From positions 310,001 to 374,000 of the forward strand of contig NZ_JACJPL010000015.1 of the NCBI RefSeq assembly GCF_014696065.1: a stretch of 64,000 nt of DNA, read 5' to 3'. How positions within the stretch are numbered: position 1 is the stretch's first letter; each line of letters opens with the position of its first letter. This document shows, in pieces, positions 32,131 through 42,096 of the stretch. Source of the DNA: Leptolyngbya sp. FACHB-261 (GTDB lineage Bacteria > Cyanobacteriota > Cyanobacteriia > FACHB-261). The translations under genes and the position numbers were made by a program. Under the pieces are notes generated by a model. That model worked only from the letters and a program-made list of their open reading frames with translations. It ran no database searches and was not told the origin of the DNA.

Positions 32131-35100
32131 CTAGGGTAGAACCCGAGATTGACGTCCTCTCAAGCGGAGATTGCTTCTGACAGCATTTTGAACAACGTTT
32201 CCCTGAAAAGTGTTGAAGTTGACTTTGAACTCTGACTCAGCAATGCCGAACCGGTGCTTCTTAGCCCCAGTAGAGCGAACACCGTTGTTGCGAACAATAT
32301 TGCGAGTTGAGAAAGTTTTGTTGTCGTCATCCAGGTAGATACCGTTGTATCTATCAGTCGAGATCAGAGAGTTATTGAGGATGGTATTGCCAACAATCCG
32401 GTTGTAGGACGAGGCTCGAACCTGAATGCCATTTCTGCCGTTTCCAGCAATGAAATTACGCTCAACAAAATTGCCGCCGAAGCCGAGAGGAGGACTGGCT
32501 AAATCTGCATAGCCAGAGCCGTAGAGGTAAATGCCATTGCCTCTGTTGCCCCGAACCGTGTTGTTGATAATTCGAATTGATTTGGAGCCAGTTTGAACGG
32601 TAATGCCATTGGAGCCATTGTTCACGGACGTGTTGTTGATCAACGTAGTGTTGAAGGACTCAGTCACCACATTGAAGCCATGCCGACCATTGTTGATCGC
32701 CAGATTGTCTCGAATCGTTGATTGTCTGAGCTTGTCAACCGTGATGCCATCGCCTTCGTTGTTTTCCGCCCGGCAGAATTGAATGGTCAGTCTAACTGTT
32801 GCTGCTCGAGTAAGCGTGTTTTCGTGCGGATCGAGGCCATAATCCCCACAATTGCGGGCATACAAATCTTCTAGAACACTGTCAGTGAAGGTGCCGTATA
32901 AGCCTTTGTTTTCTCTTAAATTTGTCTGGTTAAGGCGATTGCCATCAATGGTCAAACCAGCAACCCGTACCCCAGAAACATCAAAGGCACGCACGAGGCC
33001 AGACTCGCTCATCACCGTGTTGTCAGTGAGCCTGAGGATACTCGACCAACCCTCACCGGAGAGAGTGACATTGCTACCATCAATGAGCACGTTATTAGAG
33101 ACGTTGTAAGTGCCTCCTAGCAATAGAACTGTGCCGCCGCCCTGCGCTGCCACATCAGCAATTGCCTTATTAATGACCAGTTGATCATCAGTGCCATCGC
33201 AGAAGTACTGAGCATCTCCAGCATTGACACTGTTGCTAGCGGCAACTGCAAGCGTACGGGCACCGGTCCAGCTAATCGGATTGAGGGTCAGGCTATATTT
33301 TGAGCCAGGACTTGTGGGCGATGACCTGGAAACCCGCAGATAGTAGGTACCTGGGCCTAAGTTGCCTCGAATCGAATCAATCGGTTTGCCCTCTGATAAG
33401 CCACCCGCTGACCGCCTCAAAATAGCCCCCGTACCGCTGAGAATTTGGAAATCTAGGTGGGGCGAACTGAGACCATTGAGAAAAGTACTGAGTGCAGCAC
33501 CGCGACCCAAGCGAAAACGATAGTAATCAATCGGATCGTTGCCGTTGACCGTATCAATCAGGGTGCGTCTACCGGTTAGGAAACCTAGATTGAGCGCAGT
33601 TTGTAGATTGTTACCCGCGTCAACTGCATTGGGTTGGGCGGCTGTCGCTACAAAAGAGGACCTAGGCGTTTGAGCCTCCGGCAGAATCTTAGAGTTCAGA
33701 CCTTTGAGATCGGTGGCGCCTTTCACGGCACCTTGAACCCTATTGCCACCTAAAACATTGTAATCATCTAGCGCACTACGCTCAGCTATGCCATAGCGTA
33801 TCTTGTTGGTCGCAGTAGAGCTTATCGTGTTATCTCGAACCAGGTTATTAGTCGAATAACTGATCGTGTTATTGTCCAGATAAATTCCCATGTATTTGTT
33901 ATCAGCAAGCTGGGAATTATCGTTGATGGTATTATTAGCAACAACACTATAAGTCGCTGATCTCAGCTGCACGCCATGCCGACCATTGCCAGTTATAGTG
34001 TTCCCCCGAATCTCAGTGCTTTGGGCGAAATAAACGTAGATGCCGCTCAGGCCATTGGAGCTGACCGTGTTATTGAATAGTTTATTTCTGTCCGAGGTTC
34101 TGGAGAGATCTGAACCGGACTGCACCGTGATGCCGTTGCCGCCGTTGTTGGTCGATACATTATTAGAGAACGTATTGCCTCTAGAGGCTGTCACAACATT
34201 GATGCCGTGTCTGCCATTAGAGTCAAGGACATTGTTGGTGAACAGCGAATCAATACAATTGTCAGTGGTCAGGCCATCCACAGTATTGTGATCGGCCAAA
34301 GAATCCTTAATCGTGAGCCTGAGAGTCGGTGCTCCGGCATCGCTATTCTCGTGGGGGTCGAAGCCGTAATGCGGGAAATCATGCACCCGCATATTCTCGA
34401 AGCTGCTATCAACGTAGGTGCCATAGTTGGCATAACTATTGATAAACGAAGTGCCATTGGCCCGGTTCCCATCCAAGGCCATATGCTTGAAATGCTGACC
34501 CGAGAAGAACGGCGTTGCGGCATTGGCTGCTGAACTACTATAAGAAGACCTTAATAAACCAGCATCGTCCAGTAAGGTGTTGGGAGCCAGCCGGAGAATT
34601 GTGTTCCAACCAACACCAGACAGCGTAATGTTGTTGTAAGTAATGACAACATTATTAGAGATGTTGTAGGTTCCTCCCAACAATAGGACGGTGCCGCCAC
34701 CCTGACTCCCAACACTGGCAATGGCCTGGTTGATAATATCTTGGTCATTAACGCCAGTAGCGGTGTAATCCGCACTGCCAACATTAACCGTATTACTAGC
34801 CGCAACGGTTACCGTACCAGGGGCTTCATGGGAAACTAAATTGAGCGTGTAAGAGCTGGTATTGGCATAGAGCGGATTGCCTGTAAGCGCGGTGGGAGAC
34901 ACGCGAAGATAGTAGGTCCCTATCGCCAAACTGCGGCTGAGTGAGCCACCAGTAGTACCGCTGTTGCCTTGAGTCCAGGTAGTACCACTATTGGTTGCAG
35001 TTTGCAAAAGGTTGCCAGAACTGTCCAGCAAATCAATGGTGTTGCCAGCACTCAAGCCATTTAAAAAAGTGCTGACACCGCCAGAAACATTGACGCTGAA

Positions 35101-35415
35101 CCGGATGTAATCAACCGGGTCATTATTATTAACGACATCTGTGAAGCTAAGGCTGTTGCTTAGGAGGCCAGCATCATAAGCCGTCGCGAGTGTATTGCCT
35201 GCCAGGTCACCACTTGTTGGGCTAGTGCTGGTTAGTCTGGCTGTGCCTAGACTGGAACTACTGGCTCGGCTGCTGGTGGGACTGACTAGAGACGAAGCCG
35301 CTAATTCTCCTGACGGACTCGAACTCAAAGACGTAGAGAGTGGTCTTGTCCCTTGAGTACTAGTCAAACCGGATTGAGCCGTGTAGGTGTTCCCGTCTAG
35401 TAATTGGCTGGACAT
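32131..35415 (-). CDS. Two-module AlgE-type mannuronan C5-epimerase
   Basis: 1094 residues built as a duplication. Each half has a PPC-like beta domain (about 74-195 and 598-715) followed by a parallel beta-helix. Both helices carry the AlgE catalytic signature. Module 1 has YGFDPHE with Y350, D353 and H355, D380, and RHGINVVT with H403. Module 2 has YGLDPHE with Y859, D862 and H864, D889, and RHGFNVVT with H912. These match AlgE4 Tyr149, Asp152, His154, Asp178 and His196. The enzyme converts D-mannuronate to L-guluronate in the finished polymer. RTX-type R-modules are absent. There is no Sec signal peptide, so secretion may be by a type I route. A Lys equivalent to AlgE4 K117 is not obvious in module 1; K837 may serve in module 2. 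Confidence 0.85.
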   Translation of the reverse strand: MSSQLLDGNTYTAQSGLTSTQGTRPLSTSLSSSPSGELAASSLVSPTSSRASSSSLGTARLTSTSPTSGDLAGNTLATAYDAGLLSNSLSFTDVVNNNDPVDYIRFSVNVSGGVSTFLNGLSAGNTIDLLDSSGNLLQTATNSGTTWTQGNSGTTGGSLSRSLAIGTYYLRVSPTALTGNPLYANTSSYTLNLVSHEAPGTVTVAASNTVNVGSADYTATGVNDQDIINQAIASVGSQGGGTVLLLGGTYNISNNVVITYNNITLSGVGWNTILRLAPNTLLDDAGLLRSSYSSSAANAATPFFSGQHFKHMALDGNRANGTSFINSYANYGTYVDSSFENMRVHDFPHYGFDPHENSDAGAPTLRLTIKDSLADHNTVDGLTTDNCIDSLFTNNVLDSNGRHGINVVTASRGNTFSNNVSTNNGGNGITVQSGSDLSRTSDRNKLFNNTVSSNGLSGIYVYFAQSTEIRGNTITGNGRHGVQLRSATYSVVANNTINDNSQLADNKYMGIYLDNNTISYSTNNLVRDNTISSTATNKIRYGIAERSALDDYNVLGGNRVQGAVKGATDLKGLNSKILPEAQTPRSSFVATAAQPNAVDAGNNLQTALNLGFLTGRRTLIDTVNGNDPIDYYRFRLGRGAALSTFLNGLSSPHLDFQILSGTGAILRRSAGGLSEGKPIDSIRGNLGPGTYYLRVSRSSPTSPGSKYSLTLNPISWTGARTLAVAASNSVNAGDAQYFCDGTDDQLVINKAIADVAAQGGGTVLLLGGTYNVSNNVLIDGSNVTLSGEGWSSILRLTDNTVMSESGLVRAFDVSGVRVAGLTIDGNRLNQTNLRENKGLYGTFTDSVLEDLYARNCGDYGLDPHENTLTRAATVRLTIQFCRAENNEGDGITVDKLRQSTIRDNLAINNGRHGFNVVTESFNTTLINNTSVNNGSNGITVQTGSKSIRIINNTVRGNRGNGIYLYGSGYADLASPPLGFGGNFVERNFIAGNGRNGIQVRASSYNRIVGNTILNNSLISTDRYNGIYLDDDNKTFSTRNIVRNNGVRSTGAKKHRFGIAESEFKVNFNTFQGNVVQNAVRSNLRLRGRQSRVLP

Positions 35416-35424
35416 AGCTAACCT

Positions 35425-36324
35425 TTAATTGACAGCGAAATCAGCAAAATCAACGTACACATCTTCTGGTGTGGCCCAGGAGGGATCACCACCACCGAAG
35501 AAAGTCGAGAATAAGATACCTTCGATTCTCAAGTTTTCGGTCGTGCGGAAGGTCAGGTTGTTGGCACTCAGGACCAAATTTCCATCTACCCAGACCTGAA
35601 TTCGGCCATCGCTTTTGCCAGGAGTATTTAATGTCACCTCCTGCTCTAAGCGTTGCCAAACTCCTGGTTTAAATCGCCAGTTGCCTCGACCCAACGAAGT
35701 GCCATTCTCACTACTGGTTGGCAGATAAGCGTAGACTTCACCCGCTCCATTTCTGCGCCACATGTAGCGAGTCGAAAAGCCATTGGTTCCATCCGGAATG
35801 CGACGGCCATCATTGACCGTTCCCCCAAACAGCCCCGGCAGTTTGCCCCCTTTGACAAAATCAAAATCTTTAGAGAATTTGACGTAGTATTGCAAACGCA
35901 AACGATTGCTGGGTGCAAGGCCTAGACCACCAAAAAATTGAGCGCCACCAACAGGGGCACCAGTCTGCCGTGCAACCGTAGGGCTAGCTGAACCGGCCGG
36001 ATAACGCACTCTGAGGATCTTCTCAAACCGGCCACTGGGGTCAGCCATGACCTCGGTGTTGTCTAGACCCCAGCTTCCCCCGCGTCTGACCCGCCAACGA
36101 TTGAGCCAATCGGAACTTTCAAATTGATCAGACCAAACAGTAGCTCGGAGGGTTGGAGTTGAGGCTTGAGCAGTTGGCAATACAGACGTGGAAACTTTTG
36201 AATTCCAAGTTTTAAAAGCAGAGAGCAGAGATGACAGCGGTAATAGTTTGCTCAGCAGAAAGATAGAGGCAACGATGAGCAGTGAATGAATAAGATTCCT
36301 AGCAGAAAGAGGATGCTGATTCAT
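35425..36324 (-). CDS. Secreted PL14-type polysaccharide lyase-like protein
   Basis: 299 residues from ATG 36322-36324; the longer frame to 36513 lacks family support. N-terminal signal/anchor LIHSLLIVASIFLLSKLLPL. The beta-jelly-roll part has VWSDQFE, LRLQYYVKFSKDFDFVKGGK, LPGLFGG, FSTRYMWRRNGAGEVYAYLP and WQRLEQEVTLNTPG. These are the landmarks of polysaccharide lyase family 14, whose members cut alginate or glucuronan. It is 9 bp from the epimerase gene. It may trim or release the polymer. Confidence 0.78.
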   Translation of the reverse strand: MNQHPLSARNLIHSLLIVASIFLLSKLLPLSSLLSAFKTWNSKVSTSVLPTAQASTPTLRATVWSDQFESSDWLNRWRVRRGGSWGLDNTEVMADPSGRFEKILRVRYPAGSASPTVARQTGAPVGGAQFFGGLGLAPSNRLRLQYYVKFSKDFDFVKGGKLPGLFGGTVNDGRRIPDGTNGFSTRYMWRRNGAGEVYAYLPTSSENGTSLGRGNWRFKPGVWQRLEQEVTLNTPGKSDGRIQVWVDGNLVLSANNLTFRTTENLRIEGILFSTFFGGGDPSWATPEDVYVDFADFAVN

Positions 36325-36530
36325 AGACAGTCCCAATGGGGGAATTGAACTCAGCGCAAACTCATCATGAAGCTTTGAGTGTAAATCTGTCGAGCCTGTT
36401 CTTATTAGATTCAGGCTAGATCCAAGAGCACAAGCTTGGCCAATAAGCTTGGCCAATGAGAGACCGCGCAGCCTGAGCCTGAGGTGAACCCACTGGCTTA
36501 CTAGGCTGCGCACGTTCTCAAGGGTTAAGC

Positions 36531-37961
36531 TTAGCGGCTAGCTAATTGCGCGGTGCCGCTGGGGCTTGGCACTTTAGCCTCTGGCGCTGTTTCAAGTAAT
36601 GCGTCTGCACTCGGCTTCGGCGTGCTAGCAGTAGCCTTGCCATTCCAAGAGAGACCGCGATACTTGGCAACACCTGGTAGGGTTGGCCCATCGCTCAGAC
36701 GTACTAGGTCAATAACAGTCACGTCTTCCTTCAGGTTCTGAAGTTCGCTAGTGAACTCAGGGCGCTTCTGGCTGACGACAACTGCCTGGCAATCTTGCAG
36801 GACCTCAGCAATGTCAGAGCGCAGGATGTACTTGATTTGAGGCAACTGACGCTCTAGATACTCGCGGTTGCTACCCAGCGTTTCATCAAGCTGGACATCG
36901 GGGTCGTAAACCAGCAATTCTACGCCGTCCTGCCACAGCTCTCGGATCAGGCCGATCACTGGGCTTTCGCGCAGATCGTCGGTACCAGCCTTGAAGCTTA
37001 GACCGAGCACAGCCACGCGCCGAGCACTGCACTCGTGAACTTTGTAGCGAGCCGCCTCGATCTGCAACTGGTTGCTAGGCAGAATGCCATCCAGGATGGG
37101 CACATCGACGCCAAGGCGACGAGCATTGAAGGTCAGCGAACGCAGATCCTTGGGCAGGCAGGAACCTCCGAAGGCGAAGCCAGGCTTGAGATAAACTGGC
37201 GAGATGTTGAGCTTGGTATCGGCACAGACCAGCTTCATGATCGAGTGGCTGTCTAGACCTAGGCGGTCGCAGATACGGCCAATTTCATTGGCAAAGCCAA
37301 CCTTGAGGGCATGGAAGGTATTGTTAACCACCTTGACCAGTTCGGCCTCTTCTAGAGGAATCCGATAGAGCGGTGCTTCAACTCCTTCATACAGCCCTTC
37401 GACTAGATCGCCTGAACGGGTGTCAAGCTCACCGAGCACCGTGTAAGGGGGCGCGTAGAAGTCTTTGATTGCATCGGTTTCACGCAGGAACTCGGGGTTG
37501 ACGACAATGCCGAAGTCCTGACCAGCAGTCCGCTCAGAATGCTGCTCTAGCAAGGGCAACAACACGTTGCGGGCAACGCCAGGGAAAACGGTGCTGCGCA
37601 GCACTACCACGTGATAGCGTTCGCTCGATTTGAGGCCGCGACCGATGACCCCTGCAACGCCTTCGATATAGCCCAGCATGGCACTGCCATCGGGAGCGCT
37701 GGGGGTACCAACACAAATTAGAGAAGCATCAGCCCAGGAGACATATTGCTCGGCATCGGTGACTGCCTTCAAGCGTCCTGAGGCAATCCCTTCCTGAATG
37801 AGTTCGTCTAGGTCAGGTTCTTTAATCGGGCTGCGTCCGCTGTTGAAGGCCTTCACTTTCTCAGCGTTCAGCTCAGCACCAATAACCTCATGACCTAATT
37901 GAGCAAGGCAAGCAGCCACAACGGTGCCAACGTAGCCTAATCCCCATACTATGACTCTCAC
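36531..37961 (-). CDS. algD: GDP-mannose 6-dehydrogenase (AlgD-like)
   Basis: 476 residues. NAD-dependent four-electron oxidation of GDP-mannose to GDP-mannuronate, the alginate precursor. GLGYVG (7-12) is the Rossmann motif. CVGTPS and LNISPVYLKPGFAFGGSCLP carry catalytic C268 and read like Pseudomonas AlgD rather than UDP-glucose dehydrogenase. The C-terminal ~35 residues are a Ser/Pro/Ala-rich extension. Within this locus it supplies the donor for the synthase at 38486. UDP-sugar specificity is the alternative. Confidence 0.85.
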   Translation of the reverse strand: MRVIVWGLGYVGTVVAACLAQLGHEVIGAELNAEKVKAFNSGRSPIKEPDLDELIQEGIASGRLKAVTDAEQYVSWADASLICVGTPSAPDGSAMLGYIEGVAGVIGRGLKSSERYHVVVLRSTVFPGVARNVLLPLLEQHSERTAGQDFGIVVNPEFLRETDAIKDFYAPPYTVLGELDTRSGDLVEGLYEGVEAPLYRIPLEEAELVKVVNNTFHALKVGFANEIGRICDRLGLDSHSIMKLVCADTKLNISPVYLKPGFAFGGSCLPKDLRSLTFNARRLGVDVPILDGILPSNQLQIEAARYKVHECSARRVAVLGLSFKAGTDDLRESPVIGLIRELWQDGVELLVYDPDVQLDETLGSNREYLERQLPQIKYILRSDIAEVLQDCQAVVVSQKRPEFTSELQNLKEDVTVIDLVRLSDGPTLPGVAKYRGLSWNGKATASTPKPSADALLETAPEAKVPSPSGTAQLASR

Positions 37962-38485: not shown

Positions 38486-40723
38486 CTACTGTAGCTGAGA
38501 GACTTCAGGCTGGCCTTGAACTACCAACGCATCCGTCTTTGTGTCGTCTGCTTCAGTCATGATAATCCTACCATTATTCCAACTACCATCAACAGTTACG
38601 TATTGGATTTTGGCGCCTTGGGTTTGATAGAGCCGTAGAGGGTTAAAGCCGCTCTTTTCTAGGTGTAAGTTCTCCAAAGTTGCTTGAGCAACCTGTTCAA
38701 TGACAATACCATCTACCTTGTACTCGGAAGCAACTGACGAGCTAGGAATTTCCTGCCTCAAGCTAAAGCCTTGCAGCTTGATATCTTGCAGCCCCGGGTC
38801 GTTTTTCTTTGAGTTTTTCGAGTCAGATGAATTTGATTGAATAGGGTGCTGGCCAGTTTGCTTGATTGTGAGCACAGCGTCACCAATATTGTGGTTAAAG
38901 TGGGCTCGTAAAACCGTACGATCAACCCCTTGCCCTTCAATAGTCGTGTGGCTGCGTTGGATTTGAACTGGCTGGAATAGGTCTAATTCACCCGCAGGCA
39001 AAACTACCTCAGCTAAGCCCTCCGCAGGCAACCCGTTCAGCAGCTTGCTGAGCGCCGCTGAGTCGTCCTTGCCATCGCTGGGAACAACACCGTAATCCAC
39101 TGCTCGTACGATTTGTGCAGACATCGCTTGAGCAGCCGCTTTTTGACCCTGTTGCAGTTCTAATAAGTCACCGACTGGATCTAAGCCTCCACCCAACCAG
39201 CACAAACAAATCACGAAGCTGAACAGGCTACTGGCATATAAAAACTTGGAGGTTCCCAATTGAACGCGACGCTTCCAAGATTCACCCTCTGAGCCCATAG
39301 TTTGTCCACCGCGATTCGCCCAACGCTGCTGCGCCAAGTTGAATTGCGTCCAGACTTTAATAATCGCAGAACCCCACTGTGACGCCAGCAGAATCGGAAA
39401 GTGAACTAGCTTGAGGTGAGACGGGCGCCCCCAGAAAATGAGCAGCAAGATGATCGGGCGGCTGAAACATACCCAGGAGAGCAACAGACTCAGAGCCAGC
39501 AACTTCAGTTGAATCAGGCAAAGGATAATGAGACCTGGGGTAATCAAAGAGGTCCACATGCTGAGCCGCTGATCGAGTAAGCAGAACCACATGAACCAGC
39601 CGGTTCGAACGGGTCCTAGTGCTAGGGCTCGGCCACTATTGCGCAGCATATTGCCGAACCAGCGCCGCATGTTCTCATAAGACCGTTTGATGACTGAGCC
39701 GGAAATATTTTCCAGGGAGTACACAATGACATCCGGGATGTACATCATGTCGTAGCCATTTTTAAGCACCCAGAACCAAGTGCTCTTGTCGTCTCCCGAT
39801 AGGAATTTAAACTCTCCCCAAAGCCAGTCGTCCAGCATGTCATTTTCAATCTGCTGCACGAAAGAAGGGTTGAGCGTGATATCAGCTCTGAACAGAGAGA
39901 AGCGCCCAGTCAAGCACATGATTTTGCGAGACAGACCCATTGAGCACATCTGAAGATGTCGCTGGCTAAATCGCAAGTGAAACCATTCAGAAAATGCATG
40001 AGAGCCAGCAACGACCGGGATCTCGTCTGTGGTTAAGGCTCCCATTTTGGGAAACAGTCGGAAGAATGGCAGGCTCTGCTGCAGCGTGCCAGGCGCCAAT
40101 TCAGAGTCACCGTCCATCAGCGCAACTACAGTGTCAGGAGGCAAATCGAGTGTCGCTAAGGCTCGAATACCCTCGGCCATAGCATTGCGCTTGCCTCTGC
40201 CCGTTTGCACAATTGAGACAAATCGGACCCAGCGTTGGAAGTCGGCACGAATGTCCTCTGCCTCAATGACTTCGGCAATCGAGTCGTTTTCATCTGCCGC
40301 ACCGCTGACCACCAAAACCGTGACCTGCTGTTCAATAGCTTTGGCTTCTCGCAAAATTGCCCGGAAGACCCGCTCATTCACCCAACGCTTTTCGCGGAAG
40401 GTAGGAACTAAGAAACAGGTATGCGGTAAGGCTTCAAGGGGAACAGCATTTGCCCGCCGACGCCAACGGGGAAAGATCAGTTGGGAGTAAAGACGAGCGC
40501 GCAAAGAGTGAAGGCCCAACCAAGCCCATCGCCAAGCTCCCACTGCCCCCATGCTAACCAGTCCTGCCCCGCCCAGCAGCGTGACCTGGCCGGGGTTGCG
40601 CAATAGAACCAACCCCAAAAAGCCTAATAGAGAAATAAGCAGAATGCCAATTAAATTGACATAAGGATCATCGAATGTCCTTGTACTTTTTTGCTCAACT
40701 GATATTGATGTAGACATCGCCAT
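38486..40723 (-). CDS. alg8: Alg8-like mannuronan synthase with C-terminal beta-helix domain
   Basis: 745 residues from ATG 40723 (a GTG at 40726 precedes it). Two N-terminal TM helices, then a GT2 domain with D205-G-D207, LTTDE, SEWFHLRFSQRHLQMCSMGL, GDDKST (311-316) and RRWFGNMLRNSGRALALGPV. The last stretch (residues about 353-372), plus WFMWFCLLDQRLSMWTSL, is close to Pseudomonas Alg8. Further TM helices lie at 398-430 and 494-514. Then comes an extra ~200-residue domain (about 540-735: DYGVVPSDGKDDSAALSKLL, IEGQGVDRTVL) resembling pectate-lyase-like beta-helices. Alg8 polymerises GDP-mannuronate. Such a fusion is unknown to me. Confidence 0.87.
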   Translation of the reverse strand: MAMSTSISVEQKSTRTFDDPYVNLIGILLISLLGFLGLVLLRNPGQVTLLGGAGLVSMGAVGAWRWAWLGLHSLRARLYSQLIFPRWRRRANAVPLEALPHTCFLVPTFREKRWVNERVFRAILREAKAIEQQVTVLVVSGAADENDSIAEVIEAEDIRADFQRWVRFVSIVQTGRGKRNAMAEGIRALATLDLPPDTVVALMDGDSELAPGTLQQSLPFFRLFPKMGALTTDEIPVVAGSHAFSEWFHLRFSQRHLQMCSMGLSRKIMCLTGRFSLFRADITLNPSFVQQIENDMLDDWLWGEFKFLSGDDKSTWFWVLKNGYDMMYIPDVIVYSLENISGSVIKRSYENMRRWFGNMLRNSGRALALGPVRTGWFMWFCLLDQRLSMWTSLITPGLIILCLIQLKLLALSLLLSWVCFSRPIILLLIFWGRPSHLKLVHFPILLASQWGSAIIKVWTQFNLAQQRWANRGGQTMGSEGESWKRRVQLGTSKFLYASSLFSFVICLCWLGGGLDPVGDLLELQQGQKAAAQAMSAQIVRAVDYGVVPSDGKDDSAALSKLLNGLPAEGLAEVVLPAGELDLFQPVQIQRSHTTIEGQGVDRTVLRAHFNHNIGDAVLTIKQTGQHPIQSNSSDSKNSKKNDPGLQDIKLQGFSLRQEIPSSSVASEYKVDGIVIEQVAQATLENLHLEKSGFNPLRLYQTQGAKIQYVTVDGSWNNGRIIMTEADDTKTDALVVQGQPEVSQLQ

Positions 40724-42096
40724 CACCTACCAGCAACGAATTTGGGCATTTGCGCGAATTTAATTGGAAAGGTTACTGAGGCATTGCTGCCTAGACCGCA
40801 AAACTGTTGAGCTTTTGCGTGCTGTGGTGGCGGTGGGATTCTAACAATCACCCGCATCAAGGACTGGCCTGCCAATTCTGACGGCACGGACGGAACCAGC
40901 GCTTGTACTTGCAAAAGATTCGATTGCCCTTCTGTCTCTTGAACGCTGTTGACCGGCTGCATCAGCTCAATTTTGCCGTCGTACTTTTCGGGGTTACCTG
41001 CTAACTGAACCCTAACCGGCCTAGAAGCATCGATTTGGTTAAACTGATCCAGATTGACTAGCGATTCGACCCAAATGTTGTTGCAGTCCAGAAGCGTGAG
41101 CAGAGATTCCGAGGAGCGAACCTGCTCACCCTCTTCGCGCTTAGTACTGTAGACAACGCCTGCAAATGGCGCTTTCACTTCCAAATCCTGACGGTTACTG
41201 TAAAGCGACCGGTCCTCTTTTAGCCGGGCTCGGGCGTTGCGCAACTCAACCTCTAAAGTGCTGATGTAGCCTTCCTGCGATTGGATGCCTGAGAGCAAGC
41301 TAGAGCGCTGCGAGAGCAAGCCTGAATCGACGTTTGGCAAGCTAGTGACCGGTTTGCCCAGTCTTGCTGCCTCTAGCGCCGCTTGTGACACTTGTAATCC
41401 TGATTCTGCTTCTCTAACTTCCGCCTGACGGGATTCCCACTCGCCGCGGAATTGCTCAGCTAGGCTTTTAGAAACAGCCCCTTCCTGTACTAGTTGGGCA
41501 TAGCGGTTGTATTTGGAACGGGCAACGGATGCCCGAGCCCGAGCTGAGTCTAACTGAGCTTGGCTCTTAGCCAGTTGTCGCTGAACAACACTCGTATCGA
41601 TGGGGCCGCTGGTCGGTCGCTGACCACTTAAGATCTTGATTCGATCATTCAAATCCTCAAGCTGGCTTTTAAGAACAGCCAAAGACTTACGGGAAGAGGC
41701 TAAGTTAGCCTCTTTGAGTTCTACCTCACCTTCCAAGCGCAAGCGGCTCTGCTGCTCTTCTGGACTGCGGCTGAGCCGAGCTAATACTTGCCCAGGATTA
41801 ACAGCAACACCAGGCTGAGCATAGAAAGCGCTGACTGCCCCATCGATAGGCGCGCGCATCCGCATAATGCGTCCATTCACTAGGCCGTTATCTACCACAA
41901 TGTGGGTGAGGCGATAGCCTATGGCGGCAATACCAACAGCAGTTGCGGCTGCACCTATCGAGAGAAACAGGGCTCCGAAGACTAGCCGTTCCCAACGTCG
42001 CTTTTTCCGCTTGTGCTGGGGGTCAGGAGGTAGTGCAACCAGCGTTCCGTTAGGAGACCGTGCAACTAGCTTCTTGGCATCAGGTGTTTCTAACAT
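40723..42096 (-). CDS. Alg44/HlyD-like membrane-fusion protein
   Basis: 457 residues. Cytoplasmic N-terminal ~34 residues, one TM helix (WERLVFGALFLSIGAAATAV), a lipoyl half, a long coiled coil (about 115-290), the second lipoyl half (KAPFAGVVYSTKREEGEQV) and a beta-barrel. This equals the periplasmic part of Alg44, but the N-terminal PilZ domain that binds cyclic di-GMP in Alg44 is absent. Its stop (TGATG) overlaps the synthase start by one base, so the two are translationally coupled. A role in type I secretion is the alternative. Confidence 0.8.
   Translation of the reverse strand: MLETPDAKKLVARSPNGTLVALPPDPQHKRKKRRWERLVFGALFLSIGAAATAVGIAAIGYRLTHIVVDNGLVNGRIMRMRAPIDGAVSAFYAQPGVAVNPGQVLARLSRSPEEQQSRLRLEGEVELKEANLASSRKSLAVLKSQLEDLNDRIKILSGQRPTSGPIDTSVVQRQLAKSQAQLDSARARASVARSKYNRYAQLVQEGAVSKSLAEQFRGEWESRQAEVREAESGLQVSQAALEAARLGKPVTSLPNVDSGLLSQRSSLLSGIQSQEGYISTLEVELRNARARLKEDRSLYSNRQDLEVKAPFAGVVYSTKREEGEQVRSSESLLTLLDCNNIWVESLVNLDQFNQIDASRPVRVQLAGNPEKYDGKIELMQPVNSVQETEGQSNLLQVQALVPSVPSELAGQSLMRVIVRIPPPPQHAKAQQFCGLGSNASVTFPIKFAQMPKFVAGR

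Follow-up and report, generated by a model that had tools for sequence, protein, structure and literature searches.

Does the gene at positions 38,486 to 40,726 encode a single protein in which an Alg8-like synthase continues after its last transmembrane (TM) helix into a pectate-lyase-like beta-helix, and what would such a tail contribute to the formation of the polymer? An earlier note on this DNA had read the gene as a mannuronan synthase with such a fusion, and had suggested that the tail, if outside the membrane, could modify, guide or hold the emerging polymer. The window, i.e., the whole stretch of DNA analysed, comprises 64,000 nucleotides of Leptolyngbya sp. FACHB-261. The gene and the parts of its product are as follows:

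38486..40726, minus strand: Alg8-type GT2 synthase with C-terminal right-handed beta-helix, 746 amino acids; the start may be the ATG at 40723
39653..40423, minus strand: Glyco_tranf_2_3 catalytic domain, residues 102-358 (Pfam, 3.8e-35)
39194..39280, minus strand: last predicted TM helix, residues 483-511
38516..39115, minus strand: right-handed beta-helix domain, presumed periplasmic, residues 538-737
38897..39106, minus strand: conserved cap and first coils, residues 541-610

Integrity and spread of the fusion

The open reading frame is free of internal stops and yields 746 amino acids if counted from GTG; the ATG at 40723 is just as plausible a start, would give the coordinates of the earlier note (38,486 to 40,723) and shares the letters TGATG with the stop codon of the HlyD gene upstream. 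The gene is present in one copy in the FACHB-261 genome, and its product contains the motifs quoted earlier, GVVPSDGKDDSAALSKLL and IEGQGVDRTVL. As expected for an Alg8 protein, the GT2 catalytic domain carries the motifs of a processive synthase, with DGD (205-207), TGR (273-275), GDDK (311-314) and RW (355-356) invariant in the domain region. A direct PDB search with the whole protein retrieved nothing for the glycosyltransferase (GT) half; profile and fold searches did match, and Foldseek led to processive hyaluronan, cellulose and chitin synthases. The GT part is 33-37 % identical to Alg8-like proteins of Loktanella, Rhizobium and Tateyamaria, whose loci contain AlgD- and AlgA-type genes together with beta-helix proteins.

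The fusion was looked for, as the earlier note had proposed, in 390 cyanobacterial genomes of the class, among which the source genome is the sole member of its order. A contig scan with the single protein gave no relatives; a scan of species genomes with an alignment profile gave 36 loci, 32 of them cyanobacterial and one each from Verrucomicrobia (L062), Microvirga (L063), Rhodospirillaceae (L064) and Kiritimatiellae (L065). About 30 of the 390 cyanobacterial genomes carry the fusion, and every cyanobacterial homologue with a readable C-terminus has the tail. Since the fusion is continuous in about 30 independent genomes, a sequencing error, misassembly or frameshift joining two genes was ruled out. 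One intact frame, the predicted fold and the profile matches thus bear out the synthase fused to a pectate-lyase-like beta-helix. Within the open-licence papers, no report of an Alg8-beta-helix fusion was found.

Most non-cyanobacterial Alg8 relatives terminate directly after the last TM helix. The proteins of L062, L063 and L065 are tailless and stop within about 10 residues of residue 518; upstream of the verrucomicrobial gene lies a separate one for a 932-residue protein with a pectate-lyase-like segment (L062:5737-8532). The Rhodospirillaceae MAG (L064, 7673-10387) encodes an Alg8 whose beta-helix tail is longer, at about 390 residues. This tail can be aligned in order to the cyanobacterial tail profile with 33 bits in a small database, and the L064 gene adjoins one for a PilZ-HlyD (Alg44-like) protein. 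Stand-alone relatives of the L064 tail were observed on Thermus thermophilus plasmids (L070). In the GT-domain tree the cyanobacterial fusions form one clade (100/99) with L064 outside, the outgroup branches being flagged as long.

Fold, placement and conservation of the tail

AlphaFold2, run on the whole protein with a 34-sequence alignment, gave a mean pLDDT of 85 and folded residues 538-737 as a strand-rich repeat with pLDDT mostly above 90 except for a loop at about 620-645; the tail alone reached a pLDDT of 86.6 and a pTM of 0.81. Foldseek matched the tail to beta-helix polysaccharide enzymes, namely the lyase RbmB, AlgE4, AlgE6 and GH28-type hydrolases. The profile Pect-lyase_RHGA_epim matched residues 541-627 weakly in the whole-protein scan (1.1e-4, below the cut-off), at the cut-off with the tail alone (4.8e-6, 27.0 bits), and 20 of the 30 homologous tails at E<=0.01. 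Profile match and predicted fold together place the domain among the pectate-lyase-like beta-helices (PF12708).

According to the positive-inside rule, basic loops mark the cytoplasmic side of a membrane protein. In the hydropathy profile, two hydrophobic segments lie at the N-terminus and two more follow the GT domain; then come a basic loop (seven K+R against two D+E) and one last segment. Nearly all homologues have a net acidic tail, with a mean charge of -7.1. Because of this five-TM pattern, the basic loop before TM5 and the acidic tail, the predicted topology places the tail in the periplasm. P. aeruginosa Alg8 is described with five TM helices and a cytoplasmic GT2 domain (PMC8461298). 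That the domain follows the last TM helix, as had been claimed, is evident from the residue numbers; its position outside the membrane is most likely.

Compared with the window protein, the homologues are on average 0.62 identical over the GT domain, 0.51 over residues 541-610 and 0.12 over the linker; in the distal coils the value falls to 0.34 and then 0.18. Cap and first coils are thus under a constraint near that of the GT domain, and the remaining tail decays or is lost: the cyanobacterial tails run for about 145 to 243 residues past residue 518, some of them for only about 145-175. D551, D554, D555 and G579 are invariant across 30 homologues, R591 and R603 are present in 29 of the 30, and position 597 is often basic. 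In part, these cap residues are typical of pectate-lyase-like N-caps in general, and their conservation may reflect folding alone.

The neighbouring genes and the probable polymer

The genes around the synthase are:

40723..42096, minus strand: HlyD-type adaptor, Alg44-like without PilZ, overlapping the start of the synthase gene
36531..37961, minus strand: AlgD-like GDP-mannose 6-dehydrogenase (1mfz, 412 bits)
35425..36513, minus strand: PL14 polysaccharide lyase, alginate-lyase type (PL14 profile; best structure alginate lyase 5gmt)
32131..35415, minus strand: bimodular AlgE-type mannuronan C5-epimerase, 1094 amino acids (YGFDPHE and YGLDPHE; PPC-like domains)

A UDP-glucose dehydrogenase was rejected for 36531-37961, as the best PDB score of this type was 256 bits versus 412 bits for 1mfz. 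The PL14 assignment of 35425-36513 relies on the family profile with alginate-lyase structures as top match, from which alginate is the predicted substrate. A second PL14 gene of the FACHB-261 genome (G000:C31:672772-673542) is 66 % identical to the copy in the window. The product of 32131-35415, two genes away from the synthase, belongs to the AlgE-type epimerases by homology to the A-module (AlgE6, 5.8e-37; AlgE4, 1.6e-32) and by its motifs of the YGFDPHE type. Epimerase-related genes in two other loci (L045 and L056) bear RTX calcium-binding repeats. The AlgX profile had zero matches in the genome and zero in the controls too; the AlgE-porin profile (PF13372) had no match in the genome either, the control genomes being barely a test of that model.

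Because AlgD, the PL14 lyase, the AlgE-type epimerase and the HlyD adaptor are neighbours of the synthase, the locus most likely serves alginate biosynthesis, the polymer being predicted from gene content. The mannuronan assignment of the earlier note thus finds support in FACHB-261, where the supply of GDP-mannuronate by AlgD is encoded together with the synthase, as it is not in about 25 other fusion genomes. Five of the 390 genomes have a close AlgD (above 600 bits); the same five, and no others, have a close AlgE-type epimerase, and each of them carries the fusion. PL14 is present in 29 of the 30 genomes with the fusion and in 8 without it (Fisher 2e-35, a value inflated by shared ancestry). 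The roughly 25 fusion genomes lacking a close AlgD may therefore make another uronan, e.g., from UDP-glucuronate. A search for residues that distinguish AlgD-positive from AlgD-negative synthases returned only two weak columns, and the window protein shares neither.

Wherever the sequence of a cyanobacterial locus reaches far enough upstream, a HlyD gene adjoins the synthase gene. In the window adaptor Pfam recognised HlyD only, with no PilZ, EAL or receiver domain, so that an Alg44 partner combining PilZ and HlyD is missing from the window. A phylum-wide survey of 2015 had not detected any Alg44-type PilZ-HlyD protein in cyanobacteria (PMC4594306). Seven loci encode an adaptor with an N-terminal EAL domain where Alg44 has its PilZ domain (confirmed by Pfam in L032, L035, L042, L045 and L060), and one an adaptor with a receiver domain:

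L032:7790-9907, L033:119-2236, L034:4363-6498, L035:7772-9895: EAL-HlyD adaptors
L042:6954-9797, L045:5434-7704, L060:7696-9714: EAL-HlyD adaptors
L056:489-2360: REC-HlyD adaptor (receiver domain PF00072, 2e-27)

DDFGTG and AEGVE are consensus motifs of EAL domains. The EAL copies retain the E of the EAL-type motif and have lost both of these, which would fit degenerate binders of c-di-GMP better than phosphodiesterases. Within the open-licence papers, EAL-HlyD proteins in cyanobacterial polysaccharide synthesis were likewise not encountered.

Role of the tail and comparison with known systems

In the mechanism we propose, the Alg8-family synthase would polymerise GDP-mannuronate to polymannuronate on its cytoplasmic GT2 domain and extrude the nascent chain via its own TM channel. 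The C-terminus would leave TM5 on the periplasmic side and fold into a right-handed beta-helix that is short and non-catalytic. Most likely this module would serve at the channel exit as a structural platform that docks the HlyD/Alg44-like adaptor, receives the emerging chain, or does both. Export and the subsequent epimerisation by the separate AlgE-type enzyme would thereby be kept in order. The constant adjacency of the HlyD gene makes the adaptor the natural candidate for docking. A structural or docking role fits better than an enzyme because the proximal part is conserved and the distal part decays; the active site of an enzyme would be expected in the central coils. We therefore regard the tail as more likely a non-catalytic module in the periplasm, serving as docking platform or exit guide, than an enzyme that modifies the polymer. 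The net acidic tail, ill suited to broad binding of a polyanion, argues against the platform, and an alginate synthase with such an exit platform, its side, role and polymer all being predicted, has in our view about an even chance of being correct.

Of the earlier proposal, guiding or holding of the polymer survives as a possibility. As a carbohydrate-binding guide the tail might hold the nascent uronan via Arg591, Arg603 and the often basic residue 597, the two arginines being nearly invariant and the beta-helix a common polysaccharide-binding fold; the title of Jain et al. 2003, as cited in PMC9734138, credits AlgG with a function in secretion in addition to epimerisation. The acidic net charge of nearly all homologous domains speaks against such a guide and leaves it a minor possibility. 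The longer homologous tail of L064 makes an enzymatic ancestor of the tail possible, and with the shorter distal coils of the cyanobacteria it could suggest a decaying relic of a fused enzyme that now caps TM5 or stabilises the synthase. We consider this improbable, as cap and first coils are conserved nearly as the GT domain and never lost in readable cyanobacterial homologues, and as the position of L064 in the GT tree leaves a common descent of both fusions unsupported. Similarly improbable is an enzymatically active tail that works on the emerging chain as epimerase, lyase or hydrolase, a built-in AlgG-like function: the relatives in sequence and fold are polysaccharide enzymes, including RbmB and the AlgE4 and AlgE6 epimerase modules, and L064 has the longer tail, but the DPH(E) motif of AlgE/AlgG-type C5-epimerases is absent from all 30 tails, these are roughly half as long as enzymatic beta-helices with the distal half variable or lost, and the locus already has a separate epimerase and PL14 enzyme, so that the suggested modification of the polymer by the tail is unsupported.

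The fused tail offers a single-chain route to study how a processive synthase passes its polymer on to partners in the periplasm, which for alginate has been described as a poorly understood step. The presence of AlgD, Alg8, the Alg44-like adaptor, the lyase and the AlgE-type epimerase together makes alginate production by a cyanobacterium directly testable. More tentatively, the cyanobacterial loci could represent a uronan synthase machine of a distinct kind, a minimal set consisting of an Alg8 with a periplasmic beta-helix exit module, an HlyD adaptor with PilZ dropped or replaced by EAL or receiver domains, and PL14, which would export without an AlgE-type porin and in most species produce a polymer other than alginate.

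With Alg8 of Pseudomonas and Azotobacter the FACHB-261 synthase has in common the GT2 family, about five TM helices, a HlyD-type partner and AlgD in the locus; it differs by the additional beta-helix after TM5, by a partner without PilZ and by the lack of a porin match, with the reservation on the controls given above. The AlgG and AlgE mannuronan C5-epimerases share the right-handed beta-helix fold with the tail; the tail, in contrast, is short, part of the synthase polypeptide and devoid of the DPHE motif. BcsA cellulose synthase, a fold match to the GT half, is likewise a processive GT2 enzyme with an extra C-terminal module; in BcsA a TM helix and a cytoplasmic PilZ domain follow the gating region, whereas the module of FACHB-261 is a presumably periplasmic beta-helix. 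The closest counterpart in architecture, with a tail alignable in order, is the Alg8 of L064, although its tail of about 390 residues contains an insert and extra distal coils and its GT part falls outside the cyanobacterial clade.
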